From a virus: a DNA stretch of 45,102 nucleotides. The notes under the pieces are model-generated. The model was not told the DNA's origin. It made no database searches and saw only the letters and a list, made by a program, of their open reading frames with translations. The position numbers were made by a program, and so were the translations under genes. The stretch is taken from IMG/VR virus record IMGVR_UViG_3300025617_000040, positions 1 through 45,102 of that record; one strand, written 5' to 3'. Every line of letters starts with the position of its first letter. The stretch's first letter is position 1. Of this stretch, positions 2,384 to 33,381 are shown piece after piece.

Positions 2384-5300
2384 TTAGTCTTTCTTACCCC
2401 ACTTTCTACTTTTCCATTTAGTAGAGCTTCCAAATTTTGATTTCTTTTTCTTTTTATCTTTACTAGTTTCTACCATTCCAACATCCCATTGACTGTAACC
2501 TAACATTAAAGCTATTGATTGCCAGTACTTAGTATCGTTATCTAAAGCGACTCTTATGTTGTCAGCTTTTCTAATAGCTCTATCTAAAGGTATATTAGTT
2601 GCAGCTGAAACAATTTGACCAGTAGCGTAATATGCAGGGTTATCTAAACCAAAACCTTTCATCTTCTCTCTAGTAGTTTTATAACTAAAAGCTCTACCTG
2701 CAGACATAAGTTTTCTCATTTTAGAATCAACCGGTGGAGATATACTTAATGCTCTTTGCGCTGCTACAGTAAAATCAGGTCTGTCTTTATCAGATTGTTT
2801 TTTAACTTCTATAGCTATATTCTTAAGAGTAGAAGCAATAGCTCCGTAAACACCAACCCCTCTTAATATAGAGTCAAGCATAGAGTTAGCCATTTGAATT
2901 TCTTTATTGTTTAACTCTTCTTCGTCATCTTCAAACAGTGAAGCAAATAATGCAGATTGTAATGCTGTAAATATAATATTCTGAACAGCCATATAATAAG
3001 CTATCTTTGTGATATTAGTTTTAGCATCTCCACGTCCATTCTTAAGATCTAAGAAAGCTTTTTTAGTCAATCTCATATATTGCATAGGAGTGTTTGCAAA
3101 AGCTAATACAACACGTCCTAATGGACTCGCTTGCTGTTGACTGATTCTATCAGGTCTACTTGACTGTTGGCTTTCTTCTGCAATCTCTTGGAAGTCTAAT
3201 AATGCTTGTTCCATTGCTGCATCATCTGTTAATGAAGGATCAGCTTTCTTTAAGGATTTAAATCTGTTCCTAACAAATGAAGCACCGCCTAAAGCAATAG
3301 CGAAGCTATCAGCCATTTGCGTAGGTAAGAATCCCATCTTTAATAAAGAAGCTTTTACAGCACCAGCTTTATTAGTAGCGGTTTCTGCAGCACTTGCAAT
3401 ATCATCGGCATTTATATCATTCTTTAAACCAGAACGTCTTTGTTTTAAGAAATCTGAATTAAACAACATAGCAAAGTCAGACCAAAATTGTTTTTGATTT
3501 GCAAAAGCTTTACCTGCTTCAATAGGATTATTATCTCCCCAATTTATAAAGTTAACTGTTGACAATGTTTGTAATAATGCTGATCTTGTGTTGAAGAACA
3601 TTATAGTACCTACAGAATCGTTAACCCAGTTCATAAACTTATTAGTTAACTTGTTGCTACCAGAAGGGCGGTTCCTACCACTCTTCATCCTGTATAGCAT
3701 ATCTTCCATAGCTTCTACGTAGTTATCTCCAAAGGCTGCTCTTAGTTTGTTTAAGTTATCTTTAGAAAATATTTCATCAACGTTTTCTTGCCACTCTTGT
3801 AAGAACTCAGCTCTTTTAGTGGTGTTAATCATATTGATGGCATCAGTAGTAATAGTGCCCGCTAACCAATCATTTTGAGGTTCTGGATATTTACCTAATG
3901 CTAAATCTAACTTTTTAGCAAATTCTACTAACTTAGGACTTTTATTAACAACGTTTATTAATTCTGTTTGGTCTTCTTTTGTTAATCCTGGAATATCAAT
4001 ACCTTGTTTAGCCCATAAATAAACTCTTACAGCATCTTCATTAGTAAAACCAGTTTCGTTTATTTTCTTTAAGCCAGCTGGTATGTTTTTTATACTTTTC
4101 TTAAGGTTTTTTACAATTAAAGCCGCATTTTCTTTATAGCTTTCAAAATCTCTTATGCCTCTTGAAAAAGGATCAAATAAGTTTTCTTTAAACCAAGCTT
4201 GCTGTTGATTACCTTTATCTCCTTTACCTAGTAGTTTGTATAATAAACCAGCAAAATCATCTGCTGACGGTGGTATAAAGAACTTAAATCTGCCTTTACC
4301 TCTAGCTAGCATTTTACCTTTAGCTTCAGATATTATTTTCTTAGCTTTAATACCTGTAGATTCCTCTATAATATTATTAAAATCATCGCTTAGTGGTACT
4401 TTAGAAAACTGTTGAGGCCCTTCGGATTCAGATATTATTTTTGTTAGCTTCTCAATACCTTCTTTTGTACTTAAGGAATTACTTTTCTCATTAATAATTT
4501 CTTTAAAATTAGGAAATAATCTAAAATATACAGTTTCTGAGGATATTACGGGTCTTACTACATTGGTTATTTCAGCTTTTAAGGAGTTATAAAACTTTGA
4601 AGCTTTAGAATCTTTACCTATAGCGTATGCTCCATGAGCTCCTATTTCTATTAAATCAACACCTTTGTATAAGTCTTCTACAATAGTATGATCTGAATCG
4701 TATGAAAAATACCCAGCATTACCGTTGTTTTTGTTTTTAATCTCGTCCCATAACGTCTTACCTTCTATAAGCTTATTGTTTAATGTGGTTGTTTTAGGAA
4801 ACTTTATATGTCCACTTCTATTGAGCCCTATTTTTGGACCTGTTAGTTTTTTATTTAAATCATTTATTATTTCTACTACGCTTTCTAAGTACTTTTTGTT
4901 ATTGTTTATAGACTCTAATAAAGCAATAGTATTACTCTCACTTATTTTTTTAGAAAGCTTCAATGTTTCTTTGGTAAAGTTTTTTAGTTTAATTTGATTA
5001 TTTTTAACTTCAAATAAGCTCGCGTTTAAACTACCAACTTGGGCTTTGTTGTTAAGTTTTACTTCTACTTTAAACTCAATTCCTTTAGGTCCTTTTATAG
5101 TTAAATCCCCTTTTTTTCCTGCTATGTAGTCTACTTTGAATCCTTTTCCTAGCTTACTCAACGATTCTCTTAATGCTTTTTCATACTTAAAACCATTATT
5201 AGAGCTTTTTATATCTTGCATCATAGCTATAATACCCTCGTGAGTTACTTCAGATAAAATAGTATCTTGTGTAGCTGTATCTGTTATTTTTAAATCTTCT

Positions 5301-8300
5301 AAATATTTTTTTGCTTTACTACTAAAGACACCTCCAAAATTTATCATAATATCAAATAAACTCTGTATATCCTTCGATCCTAATCCATTTTTAATAAAGA
5401 CTTCTTTGTTGGCTTCTAAACTAAATTGTATCTGCGCCGCTCCCGCTCTAATATCTGCTTTTTGCTCACTTGTTAATTCAGCTAATTCTCTTATTGCAGT
5501 GTTAGTAGTAATTTGACCATACAATCTAATAAGAGCTAATATAGTCTGAGCTCTAGGATCTTTTCCTGTAATCTTAACTAGCGTTTCGTCTTTGTTAATA
5601 CCAAAAGCAGCATAAAAATCTTCTTTAGTAATATTTCTTTTAAGATTAAACGGTATTAAACCAGCCCCTTTAGAAGTTCTTTCTCCTTTATCATAAAATG
5701 CTTGTTGTAATTTTCGAGGAACACCTACTCCTGTACCTATTAATTCTTCTCTAGCTGTTTCTCCCTCCAGTATTGCACCTTCGGGTAGCATAGATATGAA
5801 CATGTCTGCATGCTTTATAATCAAACGCTGCATATAAGGTATTTCTTTTGTAGCTAAGTTAGCTGCAGAAGTTGTAACCTTTTTAACCGTAGTCCTCCAC
5901 CAATCAGCAGTAATATCCGGAGCCATGTCTTTTAATTTAGCAAAAGACAACGCACTAAAGTCTTCAGAAACCATATCAGCTATAGCTTCACCAACGGCTT
6001 CTGTATAGTCTTTAGATCTTTGCGGCCCTAATATTATTCTAGGGTCCACTAATTTTTTCTTTCTATTTTCTTCAGAACGAATTTCGGTCATTGTTGTTTC
6101 AGGATCGTAATCTGAAGCAATCTGGATAGTTCCTTTACCTTCGCTATCTACAGCATCTAAACTAGCTTTAATAGTAGTTTCAATACCTAGACGTTTAGCT
6201 AAATCATTTGCTCTTAAATAACCTCTATTTACTAAGAATTTTTCAACATCTTGAGTTCCGTTGTATTCATTAACAAGCATTGCTTGAAGATCTGATCGCA
6301 TAGAATCTTGATAATCTTCTCTACTAACGTTTCTTTTTTGATCCGGAGCAATTGGATCGTACAATGCTTTTGTTCTGTTGGTAACAATTTTTTCTATAAC
6401 TGGCTGCACAGCTACTAAAACTTTTTGTTCTAAACGCTCTTGTTTACCACTTTTCATAAACTCTTTACCAAACTTAGCTGCAATTTCTCTACCTTCTTTT
6501 GCAACATCTTGTATTTTTAGTACTTGCTCTTTAACAGTATTAGAAACATCTTCCGATAAAGACTTAGAGAATTGTTCTTGACCTAATATTTTTACGTCTT
6601 TTATTTTAGTGGTTGATTGTGCTTCTGCTTCTTTTAGTTTTGATATAGTAGCATCAGATACTTCACCTGCTTTTATTCCTTCGTTGTATTCTTTTAAGAA
6701 ATTATACACTGATTCACCATCTTTAAAATTAAGATCATCTTTATTTAAACCTACAGCGCCTCTAATAAATCCAGAAATTGCACCACCTATTTTTTCAAAG
6801 GTAGTTTTATCGTAATTAATCTCCCCTTTAACAATACCATCAGAAAAGATATTCATAGTTTCAATACCTATATTTTCCTTACTTATGTTTCTTGCTTTTA
6901 TTTGTTGATCAACATAAGCTTTTTGCTTAGAAGTCATATTTCTTCTAAACTTATTTACAACTTTAGTTTGTTCTTTAGAGCTACCGATTAAAGCATTAAA
7001 TATAGGGTGTAGTACTTCGTGGGATGCTGTAGATATATCTCCAAAGCTTCCGGTAGCAATATCTACTTGATTTCTTATTTTAGCTTTATTTATAAAAGTA
7101 ACACCTTCTCCAGCAAATACTCCTGTAGATGTGTCCCATCCTTTAGGTAAACTACCAAATGCTTTTTCTATAGCCTTTTTATAACCTAGTTCTGTTTTAT
7201 ATACTTTAGATTTAATACCTACTTTTTTGCCAAATTCGTTAGCAGCATTGTAGTTTACGTTAAATCTTTTTTCAAATTCTGTTTCTAAAGCATTAGCTAC
7301 AGCTTCTTGACGTGATTGTATATCTACGTCTACTTCAGAGTTTTCATATTTAGTTTCAATTTCAGCAATTTTTGCTTGTAACTGTTTCTTTTTTATTTTG
7401 TTGCCTTCAGCAGTACCTAAAGCATTTATTTCTTTTTGTATTTTTATAGCTTCTGCTCTATCATCAACATCACTAATCCTACTATCAACCTTTTGATCTG
7501 CAGCTATATTTTGTCTTCTGTTATCTATTAACTTTTGAACAGCGGGGGAATTTTCAATTTGAATATCTGCTTTAACAATAGCTTCATCGCTCATTATTTT
7601 AATAGCATCAATAAATTTTTTACCGTTTACTTGCTTTTTGTTTACTACATATTTAGGACTACCAGTATTTATAGCTTTTGCTATTTCTATCGATGTAAAC
7701 GTTTTGTCAGCAAACCCTTCAATTAAAACTTCTTCTAAATTAAACTCTTGACCCGCGGCAGCTTGACCAGCAATCTCACTAGCCATACCTCCAGCCGTTT
7801 CAACAGCAGCACTAGCAGCAACTCTTGCCGCATTTGCTATTCCACTACGAGCACTTTTACTAACACCTTTGAACACCGCACTACCAGCTCCTGCAGTAAG
7901 TATTCCTGTTATACCGTCAATAGCTCCAATAGAAACACCTCTAGCTAGAGCTTTACTTTTAATATCATTAAATCCGTCTTCATCGTTTTGTAGCTTTCTG
8001 ATATAATCAAATCTTTTATCATCAGACATTTTAGACCAATCCAATCCATCTTCAACAGCTTTCTCTTGTATTAAAGCAGCTGTAGTCATACCTGTTTCCA
8101 TTGCTCCAGATAAACCTCCAAAAAATCCTGCTCCTGCACTAACACCAGCACCTACTGCAGTACCAATACCTGGTACAATAGAACCTACAGCAGCACCAGC
8201 CGCGGCAGAACCTCCAGCAGCCGCAGCTGCAGTACCTATTACTTCTTCGCTATCAGCAGCCGCTCTGACCATTTGAGCCATAGACATAGCTGTATATTGC

Positions 8301-8923
8301 AGCATAGCGGATGGATTATCCCACCAACCTCCTAAAAAAGCACTAAAGCCATTGTAGCCTTTTTCTTTTAGCTCAGCCATTTTTTGAGAAGCCGCAATCA
8401 TTTCATCCGTTTGTCCGTTAGCTTCTATATCTCTTGTTTTTTCTAAGAAATCTTTAACTTCCTGGTCAGTTGCTTCTTTTCCTTTATATATATCAAAAGC
8501 TTCGTTTACTGAAGCTCCCGCTGTCCATCCTGATTTACCAGCTCTATATATATCCCCTACAAAATCAGTAAACTCATTTTTACCAAAAAAGTCTTCTATG
8601 TAAGTGTTTTTTTCTTTAGTGTTTTCAAAATCACTAGCGTCTACTGATCTCGATAAACCACTTTCCGATTTGGATCCCGTATCGTTTTGAGACTCCACAA
8701 TCGGATCCGCAGCTGCAGAGTCTTGCGTCTTTGCTGTTTCTAGACCCATTAAGGAGCTGAAATCATTTTGACTGCCGTTATACCCAGTGCTTTTAAATAA
8801 CCCATAAGAATCATTAAAAGCATCTTCATTAGTTTTGATTAATTCTTTATAATCATCAAAAGTTCCATTGTAACCTTCTTCAGTGAATAAGTTGAATGCG
8901 TCTTGTAAAGCTTGTTCGTTCAT
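2384..8923 (-). CDS. Giant internal virion/ejection (polyvalent-type) protein with zincin and nuclease-like motifs
   Basis: A 2179-residue multidomain protein. In order: two related ~28-residue N-terminal repeats around GYNG (about 5-30 and 34-60); Gly/Ala-rich, membrane-seeking stretches (about 228-280 and 328-395); a zincin motif HEVLH at 635-639 inside TASHEVLHPIFNAL; long helical regions; a candidate PD-(D/E)xK nuclease core with Asp1273 in KKGDLTI and Glu1287/Lys1289 in KVEVKLN; and a hydrophobic C-terminal part (about 1940-2010) after NTPMQYMRL. The layout and C-terminus resemble large phage polyvalent and podovirus ejection proteins. It lies next to two other internal-protein genes. 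I infer that it is packaged and injected, and may form a membrane channel, cleave itself or a host protein, and act on DNA. The enzymatic motifs are seen; activity is not shown. Confidence 0.85.
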   Translation of the reverse strand: MNEQALQDAFNLFTEEGYNGTFDDYKELIKTNEDAFNDSYGLFKSTGYNGSQNDFSSLMGLETAKTQDSAAADPIVESQNDTGSKSESGLSRSVDASDFENTKEKNTYIEDFFGKNEFTDFVGDIYRAGKSGWTAGASVNEAFDIYKGKEATDQEVKDFLEKTRDIEANGQTDEMIAASQKMAELKEKGYNGFSAFLGGWWDNPSAMLQYTAMSMAQMVRAAADSEEVIGTAAAAAGGSAAAGAAVGSIVPGIGTAVGAGVSAGAGFFGGLSGAMETGMTTAALIQEKAVEDGLDWSKMSDDKRFDYIRKLQNDEDGFNDIKSKALARGVSIGAIDGITGILTAGAGSAVFKGVSKSARSGIANAARVAASAAVETAGGMASEIAGQAAAGQEFNLEEVLIEGFADKTFTSIEIAKAINTGSPKYVVNKKQVNGKKFIDAIKIMSDEAIVKADIQIENSPAVQKLIDNRRQNIAADQKVDSRISDVDDRAEAIKIQKEINALGTAEGNKIKKKQLQAKIAEIETKYENSEVDVDIQSRQEAVANALETEFEKRFNVNYNAANEFGKKVGIKSKVYKTELGYKKAIEKAFGSLPKGWDTSTGVFAGEGVTFINKAKIRNQVDIATGSFGDISTASHEVLHPIFNALIGSSKEQTKVVNKFRRNMTSKQKAYVDQQIKARNISKENIGIETMNIFSDGIVKGEINYDKTTFEKIGGAISGFIRGAVGLNKDDLNFKDGESVYNFLKEYNEGIKAGEVSDATISKLKEAEAQSTTKIKDVKILGQEQFSKSLSEDVSNTVKEQVLKIQDVAKEGREIAAKFGKEFMKSGKQERLEQKVLVAVQPVIEKIVTNRTKALYDPIAPDQKRNVSREDYQDSMRSDLQAMLVNEYNGTQDVEKFLVNRGYLRANDLAKRLGIETTIKASLDAVDSEGKGTIQIASDYDPETTMTEIRSEENRKKKLVDPRIILGPQRSKDYTEAVGEAIADMVSEDFSALSFAKLKDMAPDITADWWRTTVKKVTTSAANLATKEIPYMQRLIIKHADMFISMLPEGAILEGETAREELIGTGVGVPRKLQQAFYDKGERTSKGAGLIPFNLKRNITKEDFYAAFGINKDETLVKITGKDPRAQTILALIRLYGQITTNTAIRELAELTSEQKADIRAGAAQIQFSLEANKEVFIKNGLGSKDIQSLFDIMINFGGVFSSKAKKYLEDLKITDTATQDTILSEVTHEGIIAMMQDIKSSNNGFKYEKALRESLSKLGKGFKVDYIAGKKGDLTIKGPKGIEFKVEVKLNNKAQVGSLNASLFEVKNNQIKLKNFTKETLKLSKKISESNTIALLESINNNKKYLESVVEIINDLNKKLTGPKIGLNRSGHIKFPKTTTLNNKLIEGKTLWDEIKNKNNGNAGYFSYDSDHTIVEDLYKGVDLIEIGAHGAYAIGKDSKASKFYNSLKAEITNVVRPVISSETVYFRLFPNFKEIINEKSNSLSTKEGIEKLTKIISESEGPQQFSKVPLSDDFNNIIEESTGIKAKKIISEAKGKMLARGKGRFKFFIPPSADDFAGLLYKLLGKGDKGNQQQAWFKENLFDPFSRGIRDFESYKENAALIVKNLKKSIKNIPAGLKKINETGFTNEDAVRVYLWAKQGIDIPGLTKEDQTELINVVNKSPKLVEFAKKLDLALGKYPEPQNDWLAGTITTDAINMINTTKRAEFLQEWQENVDEIFSKDNLNKLRAAFGDNYVEAMEDMLYRMKSGRNRPSGSNKLTNKFMNWVNDSVGTIMFFNTRSALLQTLSTVNFINWGDNNPIEAGKAFANQKQFWSDFAMLFNSDFLKQRRSGLKNDINADDIASAAETATNKAGAVKASLLKMGFLPTQMADSFAIALGGASFVRNRFKSLKKADPSLTDDAAMEQALLDFQEIAEESQQSSRPDRISQQQASPLGRVVLAFANTPMQYMRLTKKAFLDLKNGRGDAKTNITKIAYYMAVQNIIFTALQSALFASLFEDDEEELNNKEIQMANSMLDSILRGVGVYGAIASTLKNIAIEVKKQSDKDRPDFTVAAQRALSISPPVDSKMRKLMSAGRAFSYKTTREKMKGFGLDNPAYYATGQIVSAATNIPLDRAIRKADNIRVALDNDTKYWQSIALMLGYSQWDVGMVETSKDKKKKKSKFGSSTKWKSRKWGKKD

Positions 8924-8932
8924 TATTTAATT

Positions 8933-10315
8933 TTATTTGTTGTATTTAGATCCTACTCCTCCTCCAGCTCCTTTATTAGAAGAAACGTAATTATCGTAGT
9001 TTGATAAATGGTAATTTTGTGCTTTATCACTTATATTTGAATTTCTTAAATATAACTGATATAAATCTTTAGGATTATTTATACTAGCGGAAATAGGTTG
9101 AGGTGGTCCTTGCTTTCTAGAATCGTATAAGAATATTTGTTGCGTTCTAGGGTGCTTTCTAATAAATTGATTTCTTGCTTGCTCGCTATCTTCAATCTCA
9201 TTGTTTTCAAGCCAACCTTCATAGTATTCACCTCTTGTTATATAGTTACCAGGTTTAGTTGGATCTATAGAATTAAGCTCTTGCACTATTGCCGATGTTT
9301 TCTGTTCTGTAGTGCCTCCTTTGAAGTTCGCTATTTGAGAAAAGTTAAGCCCTTGACTTGCAGTGTCTTGAGATAATTGGATGTCTTGTTGTAATGATCT
9401 AGTAAATCCACTGCCTGTGCCTTTTGGTTTTTTATCTTGAACACCTTGATTAGCGGCTTCAGTGAATGCTTGCATGTAGCCATCTAATACTTTTTGTTTT
9501 AACAAGTTTTGATTAGCGGGGTCAAATAACTTAGGATCTTTTAATCCTAATCCACCTTCTACAACAAAGTCATCAGTTGCTAAAGACATTAGTGTTTGTC
9601 TACCACCCTTTGTAATAGCGTTCTTTAATTTTTCACGAATCATATTAGCTCTTGCTCCAGTTAAAGGCGCTCCTGCGTTATATATTTTTTCGTTTAAAGA
9701 AAGTATAGTGTCAGCTGTTTTAAAGTCTTTTAAGAAAGGTTTTTGCATTTGAGAATAAGAATCATAATTACCTTTATCTTCATCCCAGAAATTTAAACTA
9801 CCGGAATCATCAATAGCAATATTCCCTTGATCTGTGTATATATTTGCAGCTTTATTTAAAGAGTCAATTTCATTTCCATCAGATAAAACACCATCGTTAA
9901 AATCTTTCAAATAATTAACCTTGTCTTCTTTATACGCATTAAGTTGTTTAGATAAGTTACCAAAAGCCATTTGCACCCCGTTCATTTGATCTCTTAATTC
10001 TAAGTATCTTGGATCAGATGGATCTTCTATTCTAGCTATTTCACTAGCAGCACTTGCATAAACATTTCTTTTATCCACAAGAAAAGAAGTAATTGATTTT
10101 TGTTGCTCAGCAGTTAATCCAGCTAAGTCTACGTTTGAGTTAAGACTATTTATATAAGAAGCAGTTTTTGAATTTATACTGTTCTTTTTAGCTTCGGCTT
10201 TTCTAGCCGCTATTTCATCTTGCCTTACTAATTGATCGGTTACATTTTGTATGTTACCTGGCATTTTGCTTCTTCCTACTAAAGCTGCTCCTTGTATTAA
10301 ATTTCTATCTGCCAT
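8933..10315 (-). CDS. Putative internal virion protein (460 aa)
   Basis: Start taken at 10315 (MADRNLIQGAA), one base after the upstream stop; the longer frame (to 10375) would overlap that gene by about 60 bases. The protein is hydrophilic, rich in Asn, Gln, Lys and Ala, mostly helical by composition, with no signal or membrane segment. The region AARKAEAKKNSINSKTAS could be a coiled coil. I recognise no domain. It sits between a 206-residue T7 gp14-like protein and the giant ejection protein, the place where podoviruses keep internal core/ejection proteins. That context is the basis for the call. Confidence 0.75.
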   Translation of the reverse strand: MADRNLIQGAALVGRSKMPGNIQNVTDQLVRQDEIAARKAEAKKNSINSKTASYINSLNSNVDLAGLTAEQQKSITSFLVDKRNVYASAASEIARIEDPSDPRYLELRDQMNGVQMAFGNLSKQLNAYKEDKVNYLKDFNDGVLSDGNEIDSLNKAANIYTDQGNIAIDDSGSLNFWDEDKGNYDSYSQMQKPFLKDFKTADTILSLNEKIYNAGAPLTGARANMIREKLKNAITKGGRQTLMSLATDDFVVEGGLGLKDPKLFDPANQNLLKQKVLDGYMQAFTEAANQGVQDKKPKGTGSGFTRSLQQDIQLSQDTASQGLNFSQIANFKGGTTEQKTSAIVQELNSIDPTKPGNYITRGEYYEGWLENNEIEDSEQARNQFIRKHPRTQQIFLYDSRKQGPPQPISASINNPKDLYQLYLRNSNISDKAQNYHLSNYDNYVSSNKGAGGGVGSKYNK

Positions 10316-10316
10316 A

Positions 10317-10937
10317 TTATTGTTCTGTAATTTTATCGATTGCCTTATTAAAGCCTCCAATACCACCTTCTGCAAATGCCCCTACAGTGGAGGTTATACC
10401 ACCAATTAATTGATTCTGAGCTTGCTGTCTTGCTTGATTAGCCGCTCCTAATCTTTGTTGAGACATTCCTAGTAGCGTACTTACTTTTTCGTTTTCAGCT
10501 GCTCTTGAATCTAATTCACCTTCGGCTTCTGCTACCTGCAATTTAGATGCTTGTCCTCTTTCAGCCATTTGATTTGCCTGCTCTTGTTGGCCTATACTAA
10601 TTGATGCTGCTTGATTGTTATTTGCTTGTTGGTTTGCTAATGATTGAGCTAAAGCTGCGATACCACTACCACCTGCAGCACCTTGTAAAGAATTCAAAGT
10701 ATTACTTAAACCTTGTTGGTTTTGTTGCGCTTGAAAGTCAGCTGCTTGTGTGTTAACAGTTAGATCTTCCATGGTATTTTCCATGTTAGCATATACGTTA
10801 GACGTATCTAAGTTTTCAAACTGAGCTTTACGAAAGTCCATTTCTTGTTGAGCTTGCCTCTGCTCTCTTCTTCTTGCTCCTCCTCCGATTAAACTTTGAG
10901 TAACATTAGCTAAGCCTCCTACTATTTTGCCTATCAT
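10317..10937 (-). CDS. Putative internal virion/ejection protein (206 aa, T7 gp14-like in character)
   Basis: Begins with a hydrophobic, glycine-rich helix (IGKIVGGLANVTQSLIGG), then a long Gln/Ala-rich helical body (RREQRQAQQEMDFRKAQ, LAQSLANQQANNNQ), and ends with a second Gly-rich hydrophobic stretch (LIGGITSTVGAFAEGGIGG). This composition and layout are typical of small ejection proteins that enter the cell envelope with the DNA. It is first of three consecutive candidate internal proteins and follows the tail genes. No sequence-level homology is claimed. Confidence 0.75.
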   Translation of the reverse strand: MIGKIVGGLANVTQSLIGGGARRREQRQAQQEMDFRKAQFENLDTSNVYANMENTMEDLTVNTQAADFQAQQNQQGLSNTLNSLQGAAGGSGIAALAQSLANQQANNNQAASISIGQQEQANQMAERGQASKLQVAEAEGELDSRAAENEKVSTLLGMSQQRLGAANQARQQAQNQLIGGITSTVGAFAEGGIGGFNKAIDKITEQ

Positions 10938-10981
10938 TATATTATGTTTTATATATTATTATTACACTTTAGCTATGAATC

Positions 10982-11326
10982 TTAACTACTTATAAAAGTG
11001 TTAGAGCTCACGGCAAAAAGTTCCTTTTTAGATGTTGAATCTATTTCCATATCTACTTCAGCATAATAACCGGCTAAACCAGAAGTGTTAGTTTCAGGTG
11101 ACTTAGCAAAAAAGATAAAATCATTATCACTAGGTCTTTTAGCATTATTAGGTATATAACAAGTTACTGATGTATTAGTTTTGCTTATGCAAGGACCTAA
11201 TTTATATACGTTATCTAAAGAATCTTGAAAGTATACAATATCTGCACCTGCATAATTAGGAGCATCATTGTTCGCTTGTATAGATACGTTTATTTTATTA
11301 TTAAAGTTTAATGTTATTGTTGCCAT
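10982..11326 (-). CDS. Small beta-rich virion-associated protein, unknown function
   Basis: A 114-residue, beta-strand-rich protein (MATITLNFNNKINVSIQAN). It has two cysteines (CISKTNTSVTCYIP) that could pair and a Ser/Thr-rich end, with no signal or membrane part. It lies 12 bases after the 567-residue beta-rich protein and before the internal virion proteins, so a tail accessory or structural role is likely. I do not recognise the family. Confidence 0.7.
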   Translation of the reverse strand: MATITLNFNNKINVSIQANNDAPNYAGADIVYFQDSLDNVYKLGPCISKTNTSVTCYIPNNAKRPSDNDFIFFAKSPETNTSGLAGYYAEVDMEIDSTSKKELFAVSSNTFISS

Positions 11327-11338
11327 ATTTATTTATTA

Positions 11339-13042
11339 TTAAAGTTCTCCTACAAATAGTACACCTACGCTAATATCACAAACGTCACTAGCTTCAATAG
11401 CTCCGCTGTCTGCTTGGAAGAAAACTGAAAACTGCAATTCTACAGACCCGTTGTATAAATCCGTAACCGAGTTAGGTGGTCCATCTTCTCCAGCAGATGT
11501 TCCTACTCTTATAATTATATCTGCAGGGCTTATATTAGAAGTTACGTTTATTCCGTAGTCTCCTGTGTCTGTTCCACCACCAGGTCCTCCGATATTTTTA
11601 TCACATGTAACCGTGAAATTTTTCTTATTAGGTAAAGTAGACCCTACCGGTAATGTAAGTGTAGTCCCTGAAACTAGCGTAAGGTTTCTTATAGGTAAAT
11701 ATGTTACGGTAATAGGTATTGTAGAAACTGCAGCGGTTGATATATAATTGTCTATATCAAAAACTGAAGTAACATCCGATGTTCCTACAGTGTCTACTGA
11801 CCCAATAAACAACGCACTAATTTCAGTGGCAGACTCCGATAAGAATATTAAACTATCTATGTCTATAAATGTTCCTCCGTTTGTTAACGGATCGTTGTTT
11901 GTAAAATCCTCTATATTTCCAAATATGTCTATAATATTTAAAGTACTTGTAGATGTTATTGTAAATGTATTAATAAGATTACCTGCTGTATCTGATGTCA
12001 CCACTGTTGATGCTGGTAATGTAACACTTACAGGAGATGATATATTTATAGTACTATCCGCAGTTTGTAAATCTACTGTTATAGTTTTATCACTTACTTG
12101 AGTTATTGTAAATGTATGAGGTTGTTCACCAGATCCTCCAAAATTGGTAGATACTTGAGTACCAGTTAAAACGAAATCATATGAATCATCGCTAGACACA
12201 GCTGGAAAGGATATTATAAAAGTATAATTACCAGAAGCTGGTATTGTTATATTAGTTAAACTAAATATAGAATCACTATTATCATTTGTAACAGCTAAAC
12301 TAAAAGTAGCACCAGGTGTTCCAAAAACTGTCATAGTTCTAATACCTCCTACTAAATCTATATTGTTAGTCAACAAGTTATACGAAGTTATACCTGCAGT
12401 TTCCGTAAAATACTCTTCAGCAGCAGCACTAAATTCTATAGTATCACCTGAAACATTACTATTTGAAAAAGTAAAGTCAACAGTAAATATTGAAGCTGTT
12501 ATTCTATTTTCTCCATCTAATGTATCTTGCCTTGTTATATTATATTGACTTGAGTTATTCGATGTTAATACATAGCTTGGCGCTTCAGGGAAATAATAAC
12601 CACTATCAGCTGTAAACATTTTCATAAATACAGTTTCTACAGATCCGTTATTACCAGAGTCTGTGTATGGTATGTTTGTTTCAGAAGCGGGTGAAGCATT
12701 AGATACTGTAGATGAATATGTTCCACTTAAAGCATATGTAATAAGATCTGCATCTCCATCTATGTCTATAGTTATTGTAGTATCTCCAGACGGCATTACA
12801 TAAGCGTCATCTAAATCTACGTCTACAATAACTGTGTTACCTATAATTCCAGCAGCTGAGCTGTCAGATAGCGCTATTGAATTTATACCGCTAACAACTC
12901 CAGTGTTATTTGTGAAATTACTAGCTGAAACAACATAGCCTGGATTTGGTGAAATTACTAATTGTGCATTTTCACTTCCTATAGCATCTCCTCCTGTTTT
13001 TGATAAACTAGAGGAGTTAATAGTACAATTTGTTAAAGCCAT
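11339..13042 (-). CDS. Beta-rich repetitive structural protein (567 aa)
   Basis: A 567-residue Ser/Thr/Asp/Val-rich protein made of alternating strands (ITVDLQTADSTINISSP, TTITIDIDGDA, LTLPVGSTLPNKKNFTV), suggesting several stacked Ig-like or beta-sandwich domains of about 90-100 residues. Cysteines are few and there is no signal peptide. It starts two bases after the 1344-residue tail protein and fits a tail-surface or adhesin role. I could not name a domain; a BACON-type or Ig-like fold search would settle it. Confidence 0.75.
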   Translation of the reverse strand: MALTNCTINSSSLSKTGGDAIGSENAQLVISPNPGYVVSASNFTNNTGVVSGINSIALSDSSAAGIIGNTVIVDVDLDDAYVMPSGDTTITIDIDGDADLITYALSGTYSSTVSNASPASETNIPYTDSGNNGSVETVFMKMFTADSGYYFPEAPSYVLTSNNSSQYNITRQDTLDGENRITASIFTVDFTFSNSNVSGDTIEFSAAAEEYFTETAGITSYNLLTNNIDLVGGIRTMTVFGTPGATFSLAVTNDNSDSIFSLTNITIPASGNYTFIISFPAVSSDDSYDFVLTGTQVSTNFGGSGEQPHTFTITQVSDKTITVDLQTADSTINISSPVSVTLPASTVVTSDTAGNLINTFTITSTSTLNIIDIFGNIEDFTNNDPLTNGGTFIDIDSLIFLSESATEISALFIGSVDTVGTSDVTSVFDIDNYISTAAVSTIPITVTYLPIRNLTLVSGTTLTLPVGSTLPNKKNFTVTCDKNIGGPGGGTDTGDYGINVTSNISPADIIIRVGTSAGEDGPPNSVTDLYNGSVELQFSVFFQADSGAIEASDVCDISVGVLFVGEL

Positions 13043-31571: not shown

Positions 31572-31825
31572 TCTACCAGTACTATATCTTGTGCTTTTAA
31601 TACATAATACAAAGATTCACCCCATTCAATCCCGTGACCAGCGTGCCTATCATATCTTATAATATCACCTTTCTTTATATCAGGTACTAAATTACCAACA
31701 CTTATAACTTCAGCTCTAAGGTATCTTACGTCTTTGTTTTGTTTTTCAGTTAACTCTAAACCACCTACTTTCTTCGGAGCTTCTTTAATCTTGTCAACTA
31801 CTACATAATAATTAATTGCCTGCAT
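31568..31825 (-). CDS. groS: Co-chaperonin GroES
   Basis: An 85-residue GroES, slightly short of the bacterial ~97. The mobile loop is recognisable as KVGGLELTEKQ (GG plus hydrophobics, the GroEL contact), followed by the conserved AEVISVGNLVPDIKKGDIIR and a final ILVE-like strand (AQDIVLVE). The usual roof-loop segment is shortened. It caps GroEL during folding. It directly follows groEL with a one-base TAATG overlap, so both are made together. Identification is strong from the mobile loop, barrel motif and gene pairing. Confidence 0.88.
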   Translation of the reverse strand: MQAINYYVVVDKIKEAPKKVGGLELTEKQNKDVRYLRAEVISVGNLVPDIKKGDIIRYDRHAGHGIEWGESLYYVLKAQDIVLVE

Positions 31826-33381
31826 TATGCTAATCTTTTATTACTGATTACACAATCGGCAGATATAATTGTAGTAACAACACTAACTGCATTTTTTAAC
31901 GCGGACTTTGTAACTAAAACAGGATCTATAATACCTGCTTTAATCATATTAGAATTTTTACCTGTAACTACATTTATACCCCAGCCTTTTTTGTTTGGCA
32001 TGTAATCAATCATAATACCAGCGTTTTCTAATATTGTTTTATAAGGCGCTTGAATAGCTTCTAATAAAACTTCTTCACCTTTATTCTTTGGCTTTATATT
32101 TTTTGATGCATTTAATAAAGCAATACCTCCTCCTGGAACAATACCCTCTTTATAAGCGGCTTTTGTCGCATATATTGCATCTTCAATACGATCTTTCTTT
32201 TCTTTCATTTCTACTTCAGAATCAGCACCTACTCTAATGATACCAACTTGACCGGAAAGCATTGATAATCGTTGTTCTAATTTCTTTCTAAAAAACGAAT
32301 TTGTTTCTGTTTTAATTTTTTCTTTAACAGCTTCTATTCGCTCTTCAAGCTCTTCTGAATTTGGCTCAACTTGTAACACAGTGTTTTTATCATCTGTAAC
32401 AGACTTAATAGCTTGACCTAATACTGAAGGATCTATTAAATCTAAATCATCACCTAATTCTTCGTTTATTACTGTAGCTCCTGTTAGTATAGCCAAGTCT
32501 TCAACTGTTTGTTGTCTAGTAGGTCCAAATCCTGGAGGATCTACTATATTTACTTTTATATTTCCTTTTGCTTTATTAGCTACTAAAGTTGCAAATGGTT
32601 GTTGCTCTACTTCAGATACTATTAATAAGCTTCTTTTGTTCTTTATAACGTGTTCTAAGACGTTTTGTATTCTTCTGATATTAGGTATAGGAGAAGATAC
32701 AATAAGTACGTAAGGATTGTCTAAAACACTTATACCTTTATCTTTGTCAGTTACTAAATGCTGTGACTTTAACTTTGAATCAAATTGAACACCTTCTACA
32801 AAATCTACGTAAGTTTCGTTTGTTTCAGATTCTTCCATTAACACTACACCGTTCTTTCCAACCTTTTCATAAGCCTCGCCGATTTTATCGCCCAAGTCTT
32901 TATCGTTGTTACAGCTAATTGCTGCAACTTGTTTAAGCATTTCACCTTCAACTTCTATACTTATTTTATCTAGGTAGCTCCTAACTTTAGAAGCACCGCT
33001 TACAATACCTTGCTTAAGCTCTCTAACTTCTGTATCTGTTAATTGCTCATTTGCTTTTTGTAATAAAGCGTTTGCTAACACAGTTGCTGTTGTTGTTCCG
33101 TCTCCTGCTTCTTTTACGGTATTGCTTGCTGCTTCTTTTATTAGTGTTGCTCCTATATTTTCAACCGGATGTAATAAGACTACGCTTTCCGCAACGGTTA
33201 CACCATCTTTTGTTATCACCGGTCTTCCTAAAGCGTCTTCATATATTACGCATTTACCCGACGCTCCTAGCGTAGATTTTACTGCGTTTGATAATTTTTG
33301 AACGCCTTGTACTATTTGTTCTTTAGCTTCGCTTCCGAATGTGAGTGTTTTAACAATCTCACTTGGGTTATTAAATTCCAT
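31825..33381 (-). CDS. groL: Chaperonin GroEL
   Basis: A 518-residue chaperonin of the bacterial (group I) type. ATP-site motifs are intact: GDGTTTATVLA at 93-103, TKDGVTVAE near 57-65, Asp401 in RIEDAIYATKAAY and PGGGIAL at 416-422. The apical domain is recognisable (PPGFGPTRQQTVEDLAILTG), but the segment corresponding to the GYLSPYFI substrate/GroES-binding strip is KLKSQHLV (203-210), far less hydrophobic. There is no C-terminal GGM tail; the protein ends ISNKRLA. These changes suggest a chamber tuned to phage proteins such as capsid or fibres. It is expressed with groES. Identification is certain; specialisation is inferred. Confidence 0.97.
   Translation of the reverse strand: MEFNNPSEIVKTLTFGSEAKEQIVQGVQKLSNAVKSTLGASGKCVIYEDALGRPVITKDGVTVAESVVLLHPVENIGATLIKEAASNTVKEAGDGTTTATVLANALLQKANEQLTDTEVRELKQGIVSGASKVRSYLDKISIEVEGEMLKQVAAISCNNDKDLGDKIGEAYEKVGKNGVVLMEESETNETYVDFVEGVQFDSKLKSQHLVTDKDKGISVLDNPYVLIVSSPIPNIRRIQNVLEHVIKNKRSLLIVSEVEQQPFATLVANKAKGNIKVNIVDPPGFGPTRQQTVEDLAILTGATVINEELGDDLDLIDPSVLGQAIKSVTDDKNTVLQVEPNSEELEERIEAVKEKIKTETNSFFRKKLEQRLSMLSGQVGIIRVGADSEVEMKEKKDRIEDAIYATKAAYKEGIVPGGGIALLNASKNIKPKNKGEEVLLEAIQAPYKTILENAGIMIDYMPNKKGWGINVVTGKNSNMIKAGIIDPVLVTKSALKNAVSVVTTIISADCVISNKRLA

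Follow-up and report, generated by a model that had tools for sequence, protein, structure and literature searches.

A giant viral protein combining a zincin-like domain with an exchangeable, predicted PD-(D/E)xK-type nuclease module

Does a single giant phage protein carry two enzymes into the host cell, and what would each of them do there? The question is raised by a gene in the viral record IMGVR_UViG_3300025617_000040, of which the whole stretch of 45,102 nucleotides (the window) was analysed. An earlier reading of the letters alone, called here the original prediction, had proposed that the product of this gene is delivered with the DNA and holds both a zincin motif and a PD-(D/E)xK nuclease-like core. 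The gene coordinates given there are right and the coding strand is minus: the frame starts with an ATG at 8923 and runs down to 2384 with 0 internal stops.

2384..8923, minus strand: giant protein of 2179 residues, proposed to be polyvalent (ejected, multi-enzyme); open frame, relatives in viral contigs

With a probability of about 0.6, we read the product as a polyvalent-type protein that is ejected, processed by its zincin and equipped with exchangeable effectors; its ejection, its cleavage and the cleavage site, and the activity and target of the nuclease, are what we infer. In the computations, both catalytic sets are conserved, modules are exchanged among relatives, a short motif recurs at module borders and the nuclease is homologous to stand-alone proteins. 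The comparison set consisted of 15 near relatives and, partly overlapping with them, 80 loci in which the C-terminal module recurs, all from viral contigs; together they comprise 84 distinct proteins.

6830..7213, minus strand: zincin-like metallopeptidase domain, residues about 571-698 (AlphaFold2 and invariant H635, E636, H639, E688)
7007..7021, minus strand: HEVLH motif, residues 635-639 (motif search and alignments of relatives)
6860..6862, minus strand: E688, proposed third zinc ligand, within IETMNIFSDG (unchanged in both alignments, of 28 and of 53 relatives)

The HEVLH motif was found at residues 635-639 as originally claimed. Histidine is rare in the giant protein (7 of 2179 residues) and only 0.0016 HExxH occurrences are expected, so the motif is not due to chance here. 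Across 53 divergent relatives, H635, E636, H639 and E688 were the sole invariant columns, and HExxH was present in every relative with the N-terminal part covered, the exceptions being contigs or frames that do not include this part. A model computed with AlphaFold2 from 28 sequences (predicted local distance difference test, pLDDT, 79; predicted template modelling score, pTM, 0.75) contained three strands, HEVLH in a helix at 98-111 and E688 in a helix at 148-164 (model numbering). The MPTase domain has been described with three strands, an HExxH helix and a later helix carrying a Glu (Iyer et al. 2017, PMC5512222); the modelled elements and the invariant H, E, H and E follow this layout of the polyvalent-class zincins. 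Most Pfam families matched by the zincin set were scattered chance hits, Peptidase_M78 and DUF6782 (a putative metallopeptidase) ranking first, and a PDB profile search with the zincin alignment gave no sensible match. In one subgroup of relatives (L045-L051, L055-L057, L059), another HExxH follows the C-terminal module, some 60-75 residues short of the C-terminus.

4415..5422, minus strand: nuclease module, residues 1168-1503, a PD-(D/E)xK core followed by an IG..G.Y..G domain (conservation, model, profile comparison)
5180..5182, minus strand: E1248, nuclease-core glutamate in helix 1 (invariant)
5105..5107, minus strand: D1273, nuclease-core residue where strand 2 begins (invariant, model)
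5057..5065, minus strand: E1287-V-K1289 of the nuclease core, strand 3 (invariant, model)

For the nuclease core, the stated positions of D1273 and E1287-V-K1289 were confirmed; their spacing, on which the proposal had been based, is uninformative by itself. A loose PD-(D/E)xK spacing pattern occurs at 14 places in the same giant protein, and conservation was used as the test because spacing by itself is so common there; it marks this instance as genuine. In an alignment of 13 modules, in which the others are 17-52% identical to that of the window, E1248, D1273, E1287 and K1289 were invariant, as were a Tyr and a Gly of the downstream IG..G.Y..G domain. The nuclease module was modelled together with the C-terminal module (model residue + 1167 = protein residue), and pLDDT in the nuclease part was mostly 80-94. 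The model shows a helix at 80-91 followed by three strands at 96-99, 107-110 and 116-122, with D1273 (106) before strand 2 and E1287 (120) and K1289 (122) in strand 3, which is the PD-(D/E)xK layout. All Pfam matches of the modules were below threshold (among them PDDEXK_9, Mrr_cat_2, TnsA N-terminal and SfsA, four PD-(D/E)xK families), a DUF7659 match at residues 1149-1267 (E 0.0023) also lay below its cut-off, and a PDB profile search with the nuclease alignment gave no sensible match. The best explanation is a metal-dependent PD-(D/E)xK-type DNA nuclease, as predicted from conserved residues and modelled topology. Structure prediction agrees with both proposed domains in its good confidence and fitting topology; neither model had a significant fold match in the PDB.

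Could both motifs be leftovers or chance matches in a core protein whose role is structural only? The 14 loose spacings and the lack of a significant PDB fold match are what would be expected then. Against this, precisely the catalytic residues are invariant amid near-total divergence of their surroundings, and we consider this explanation very improbable.

2387..4411, minus strand: conserved C-terminal carrier module (C module), residues 1505-2179, all-helical (identity to near relatives, BFVD matches)

That one giant protein holds two enzyme-like domains is upheld by the conservation of the catalytic sets, the modelled topology and the homology of the nuclease. The original prediction had overlooked, however, that zincin and nuclease are not equivalent. 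The C module is 60-80% identical to that of near relatives, and the zincin is universal in the family and was for this reason assigned to the carrier, to which it probably belongs. By profile, the nuclease module is present in only 15 of the 84 family proteins. Versions with 40-52% identity lie directly before the C module in L010/L018 (one contig), L017, L019, L020 and L021, and more divergent versions occupy the same place in L011, L033, L058, L001, L012, L039 and L015; in the scan of viral contigs, a single-sequence nuclease query gave no confirmed match and a two-sequence alignment query worked. Relatives lacking catalytic residues had been named as a refutation: most lack the whole module, and every aligned module keeps the residues.

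Other relatives carry HAD-type, ART-type or zeta-kinase modules in the place of the nuclease. The HAD-type DxDxT motif was found in 43 of 84 proteins, the majority of which have it about 163 residues ahead of the C module, and a zeta-toxin or AAA_33 kinase module above cut-off (E 4e-15) lies in the cargo place of L100:6623-8500. The zincin and the C module are therefore constant and the cargo varies, the nuclease being one exchangeable cargo among several. The HAD-type phosphatase-like module (DFDDTLA, LTAR, FYFADDA) was seen in L070-L091 and others, for example L071:6623-8500, with DUF2608 as the closest Pfam family. A relative named UDP-N-acetylglucosamine kinase is also listed in BFVD.

6563..6574, minus strand: QFSK linker motif 1, residues 784-787, C-terminal to the zincin region (motif search)
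5420..5428, minus strand: QFS linker motif 2, residues 1166-1168, where a mosaic border has its edge at 1168 (motif and border test)
4400..4411, minus strand: QFSK linker motif 3, residues 1505-1508, in the loop between nuclease and C module (motif, border, model)

What marks the borders between carrier and cargo? In the window protein, the mosaic edges at 1168 and 1505 coincide with the motifs at 1166 and 1505, which bracket the nuclease, and residues 1501-1509 (model 334-342), holding motif 3, have a pLDDT below 50. In the family, 44 of 79 QFS motifs had a mosaic edge no more than 20 residues away, compared to a mean of 12.7 and a maximum of 22 in 200 trials of random placement. Upstream of the C module, 63 QFSK were seen in 31 nearer members where 0.6 were expected, and 6 in 51 distant members where 1.1 were expected, counts that are inflated by related sequences. 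As 64 copies of QFSK are encoded by 17 DNA spellings using both serine codon classes (TCN and AGY), the motif is kept as protein. These features fit QFSK as a candidate cleavage site for the protein's own zincin.

Two other explanations bear on the same motif. QFSK might be a recombination scar or a neutral flexible linker in a protein that works uncut, like the N4 virion RNA polymerase, which is packaged unprocessed (Iyer et al. 2017, PMC5512222). A position at mosaic borders is what a recombination joint would give, whereas the 17 spellings with TCN and AGY codons argue for upkeep at the protein level and the motif was absent from 22 other window proteins checked; we hold this explanation to be rather unlikely. 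No RNA polymerase domain of the N4 type was found among the Pfam and PHROG matches of the giant protein. The zincin might otherwise be itself the effector, cutting host proteins after entry with QFSK uninvolved, and Iyer et al. 2017 (PMC5512222) name effector function among the options for domains of this kind. However, the zincin is universal and unexchanged, unlike cargo, and QFSK clusters at borders among the members with related zincins, the signal being far weaker in the distant group; we consider this role improbable.

Does the nuclease act on foreign DNA or on that of the phage? Stand-alone homologues of the module were found in cyanophages.

NC_006883, 157263-157940 (locus L106): PSSM2_192 of P-SSM2, a predicted PD-(D/E)xK nuclease
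NC_028663 (locus L107): P-TIM40 gp181, a nuclease-module homologue

These two and one S-8S53 protein retain the E..D..ExK residues, all adjoin uvsX, helicase and MazG genes and belong to phrog_26930, annotated as of unknown function, to which the nuclease module now gives a predicted one. By hhalign, the window module matched the L011 type (E 5e-9), the L011 type matched the cyanophage proteins (4e-22) and the window type matched the cyanophage proteins (3e-7). The P-SSM2 entry Q58MG2 (225 residues), which was among the BFVD fold matches, is probably PSSM2_192 since the lengths are equal. The PSSM2_192 family resembles the window module over its whole length, in the E..D..ExK set and in the downstream IG..G.Y..G domain; it is a free-standing gene in a cyanophage DNA replication cluster, whereas the window version is a module within a giant protein. 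The E..D..ExK set also resembles that of Holliday junction resolvases of the restriction endonuclease (REase) fold. It may be proposed, then, that the nuclease serves phage DNA as a resolvase-like or repair enzyme during or soon after entry and does not attack the host. Such a role is favoured by the surroundings of the stand-alone genes, which in T4-like cyanophages lie in replication clusters with uvsX, gp41 helicase and MazG, and by the REase-fold proteins listed as resolvase candidates in jumbo phages (PMC7824862). On the other side, the nuclease is exchanged with ART-, HAD-like and kinase modules, as is typical of conflict effectors, and is missing from most relatives. We regard a role on phage DNA as unlikely.

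The proposal that the protein enters with the DNA is supported indirectly, by the position of its gene at the end of the virion cluster and by fold matches to polyvalent and structural giant proteins. The contig (45.1 kb) also encodes a portal, a large terminase and GroEL. The window terminase is nearest to that of MW202828 (63%), followed by Flavobacterium elemo phages (46%) and Cellulophaga/Tenacibaculum podoviruses (31-38%). In these terminase relatives the giant gene is the last of the virion gene cluster, annotated as structural in the cultured ones, and the window gene is placed likewise. Cultured members of such lineages, Calle and Gundel, have podoviral morphology (PMC8776804). The giant protein is probably carried in the particle of this marine virus of Flavobacteria-type bacteria.

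The C module was modelled as all-helical with patchy confidence (AlphaFold2). In BFVD, Foldseek matched the model to giant proteins of viruses that bear the names ART-PolyVal and large polyvalent protein-associated (E 2e-9 to 3e-4 for these polyvalent entries) and to structural proteins of Tenacibaculum phage Gundel_1 and Flavobacterium phage elemoC; the low TM-scores of these matches probably reflect the differing domain arrangement and the patchy confidence. By tblastn, the C module had no relative in the phage collection. It had none in the genome collection either, so that neither a link to a host nor a trace of a prophage was obtained.

How does the protein compare with known systems? The presumed task of polyvalent proteins is to disarm the host within minutes of the start of infection, and in most of the features compared the window protein agrees with this class. 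Polyvalent proteins are large, combine unrelated enzyme domains and commonly include a zincin, with ART or other cargo in relatives (Iyer et al. 2017, PMC5512222), as here. The giant proteins likewise combine at least two domains of disparate predicted activity in one polypeptide (zincin and nuclease in the window, HAD, ART or zeta kinase in relatives) and have domains in common with recognised polyvalent proteins, as seen from the BFVD matches and from sub-cut-off ART-PolyVal in relatives. The main text of Iyer et al. 2017 (PMC5512222), as searched, mentions no PD-(D/E)xK cargo, 'restriction endonuclease' appearing only in the title of a reference, and no QFSK border motif is described in the portions of that article covered by the search; this type of cargo is apparently undescribed for polyvalent proteins. 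Among candidate counterparts, elemoE gp18 (Flavobacterium elemo phage), phi13:2 gp127 and phi38:1 gp101 (Cellulophaga podoviruses) are also encoded by the last gene of the virion cluster and annotated as structural. The first has a zincin-like HEIFH, as the window protein has HEVLH, whereas the two Cellulophaga proteins are without HExxH, and the C-module profile did not reach any of the three at the sequence level. Two giant proteins occupy the same gene position: elemoE gp18 (L104:20852-31936) with 3694 residues and one HExxH, and that of MW202828 (L102:741-12320) with 3859 residues and two HExxH.

Several results weigh against a polyvalent-type, self-processing protein. Searched against the PDB with Foldseek, the zincin model had no significant match, the best being the zincin PPEP-3 (E 0.56), and neither had the combined model of nuclease and C module, in which the helical part dominated. 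Among 13 records, the MPTase-PolyVal profile (PF18818) gave 0 matches with an E of 10 or lower, which places the window zincin outside this profile; since 12 divergent MPTase clades have been reported (Iyer et al. 2017, PMC5512222), this single profile is not exhaustive. The LPD38 profile had no match, and the ART-PolyVal matches in L006-L008 and L015 all lay below the curated cut-off. The relatedness behind the QFSK counts belongs here too, and QFSK may be a plain linker or scar.

On the polyvalent reading, the protein would belong to a podovirus related to Cellulophaga and Flavobacterium podoviruses, and would be a virion component that is ejected along with the DNA. Its helical C module (1505-2179) would form the conserved carrier or packaging part and the zincin (about 571-698) the carrier protease, which would most likely cut the polyprotein, either inside the particle or once the cell has been entered. 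Cutting at the QFSK-type linkers at 784, 1166 and 1505 would free the 1166-1505 nuclease (E1248, D1273, E1287, K1289) for early action on host or rival DNA, and relatives would retain zincin and carrier and swap the cargo. More tentatively, and with the odds somewhat against it, we propose a general system of exchangeable payloads, in which a zincin carrier cuts itself at a QFSK code that also marks the swap joints, so that any module between two QFSK would be packaged, injected and released; the nuclease payload would found a new REase-fold family (E..D..ExK and IG..G.Y..G), some members being payloads and others the products of separate cyanophage genes. As a zincin common to all members, a joint motif and exchangeable payloads come together here, payload release is directly testable.

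8099..8218, minus strand: Gly/Ala-rich hydrophobic stretch, residues 236-275 (composition test)

The Gly/Ala-rich part noted originally is present at residues 236-275; it is not a family-wide feature, as only 35 of 79 proteins pass the same test. Searching the PDB with the whole giant protein as sequence query gave no match. Residues 1-96 (window 8636-8923) form a GYNG-containing N-terminal repeat in common with the MW202828 giant protein (E 5e-7); because of this, the extreme N-terminus is taken as an older common part, perhaps serving as a virion attachment or packaging element. At L020:5311-12987, the giant gene lies in overlapping frames (5311-9093, 9023-12700 and 12628-12987), owing to frameshifts or assembly errors. 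The phage GroEL gene is located at window positions 31825-33381 and GroEL is also encoded by the related MW202828; in phi38:1, GroEL is reported to be methylated in virions (PMC13288928).

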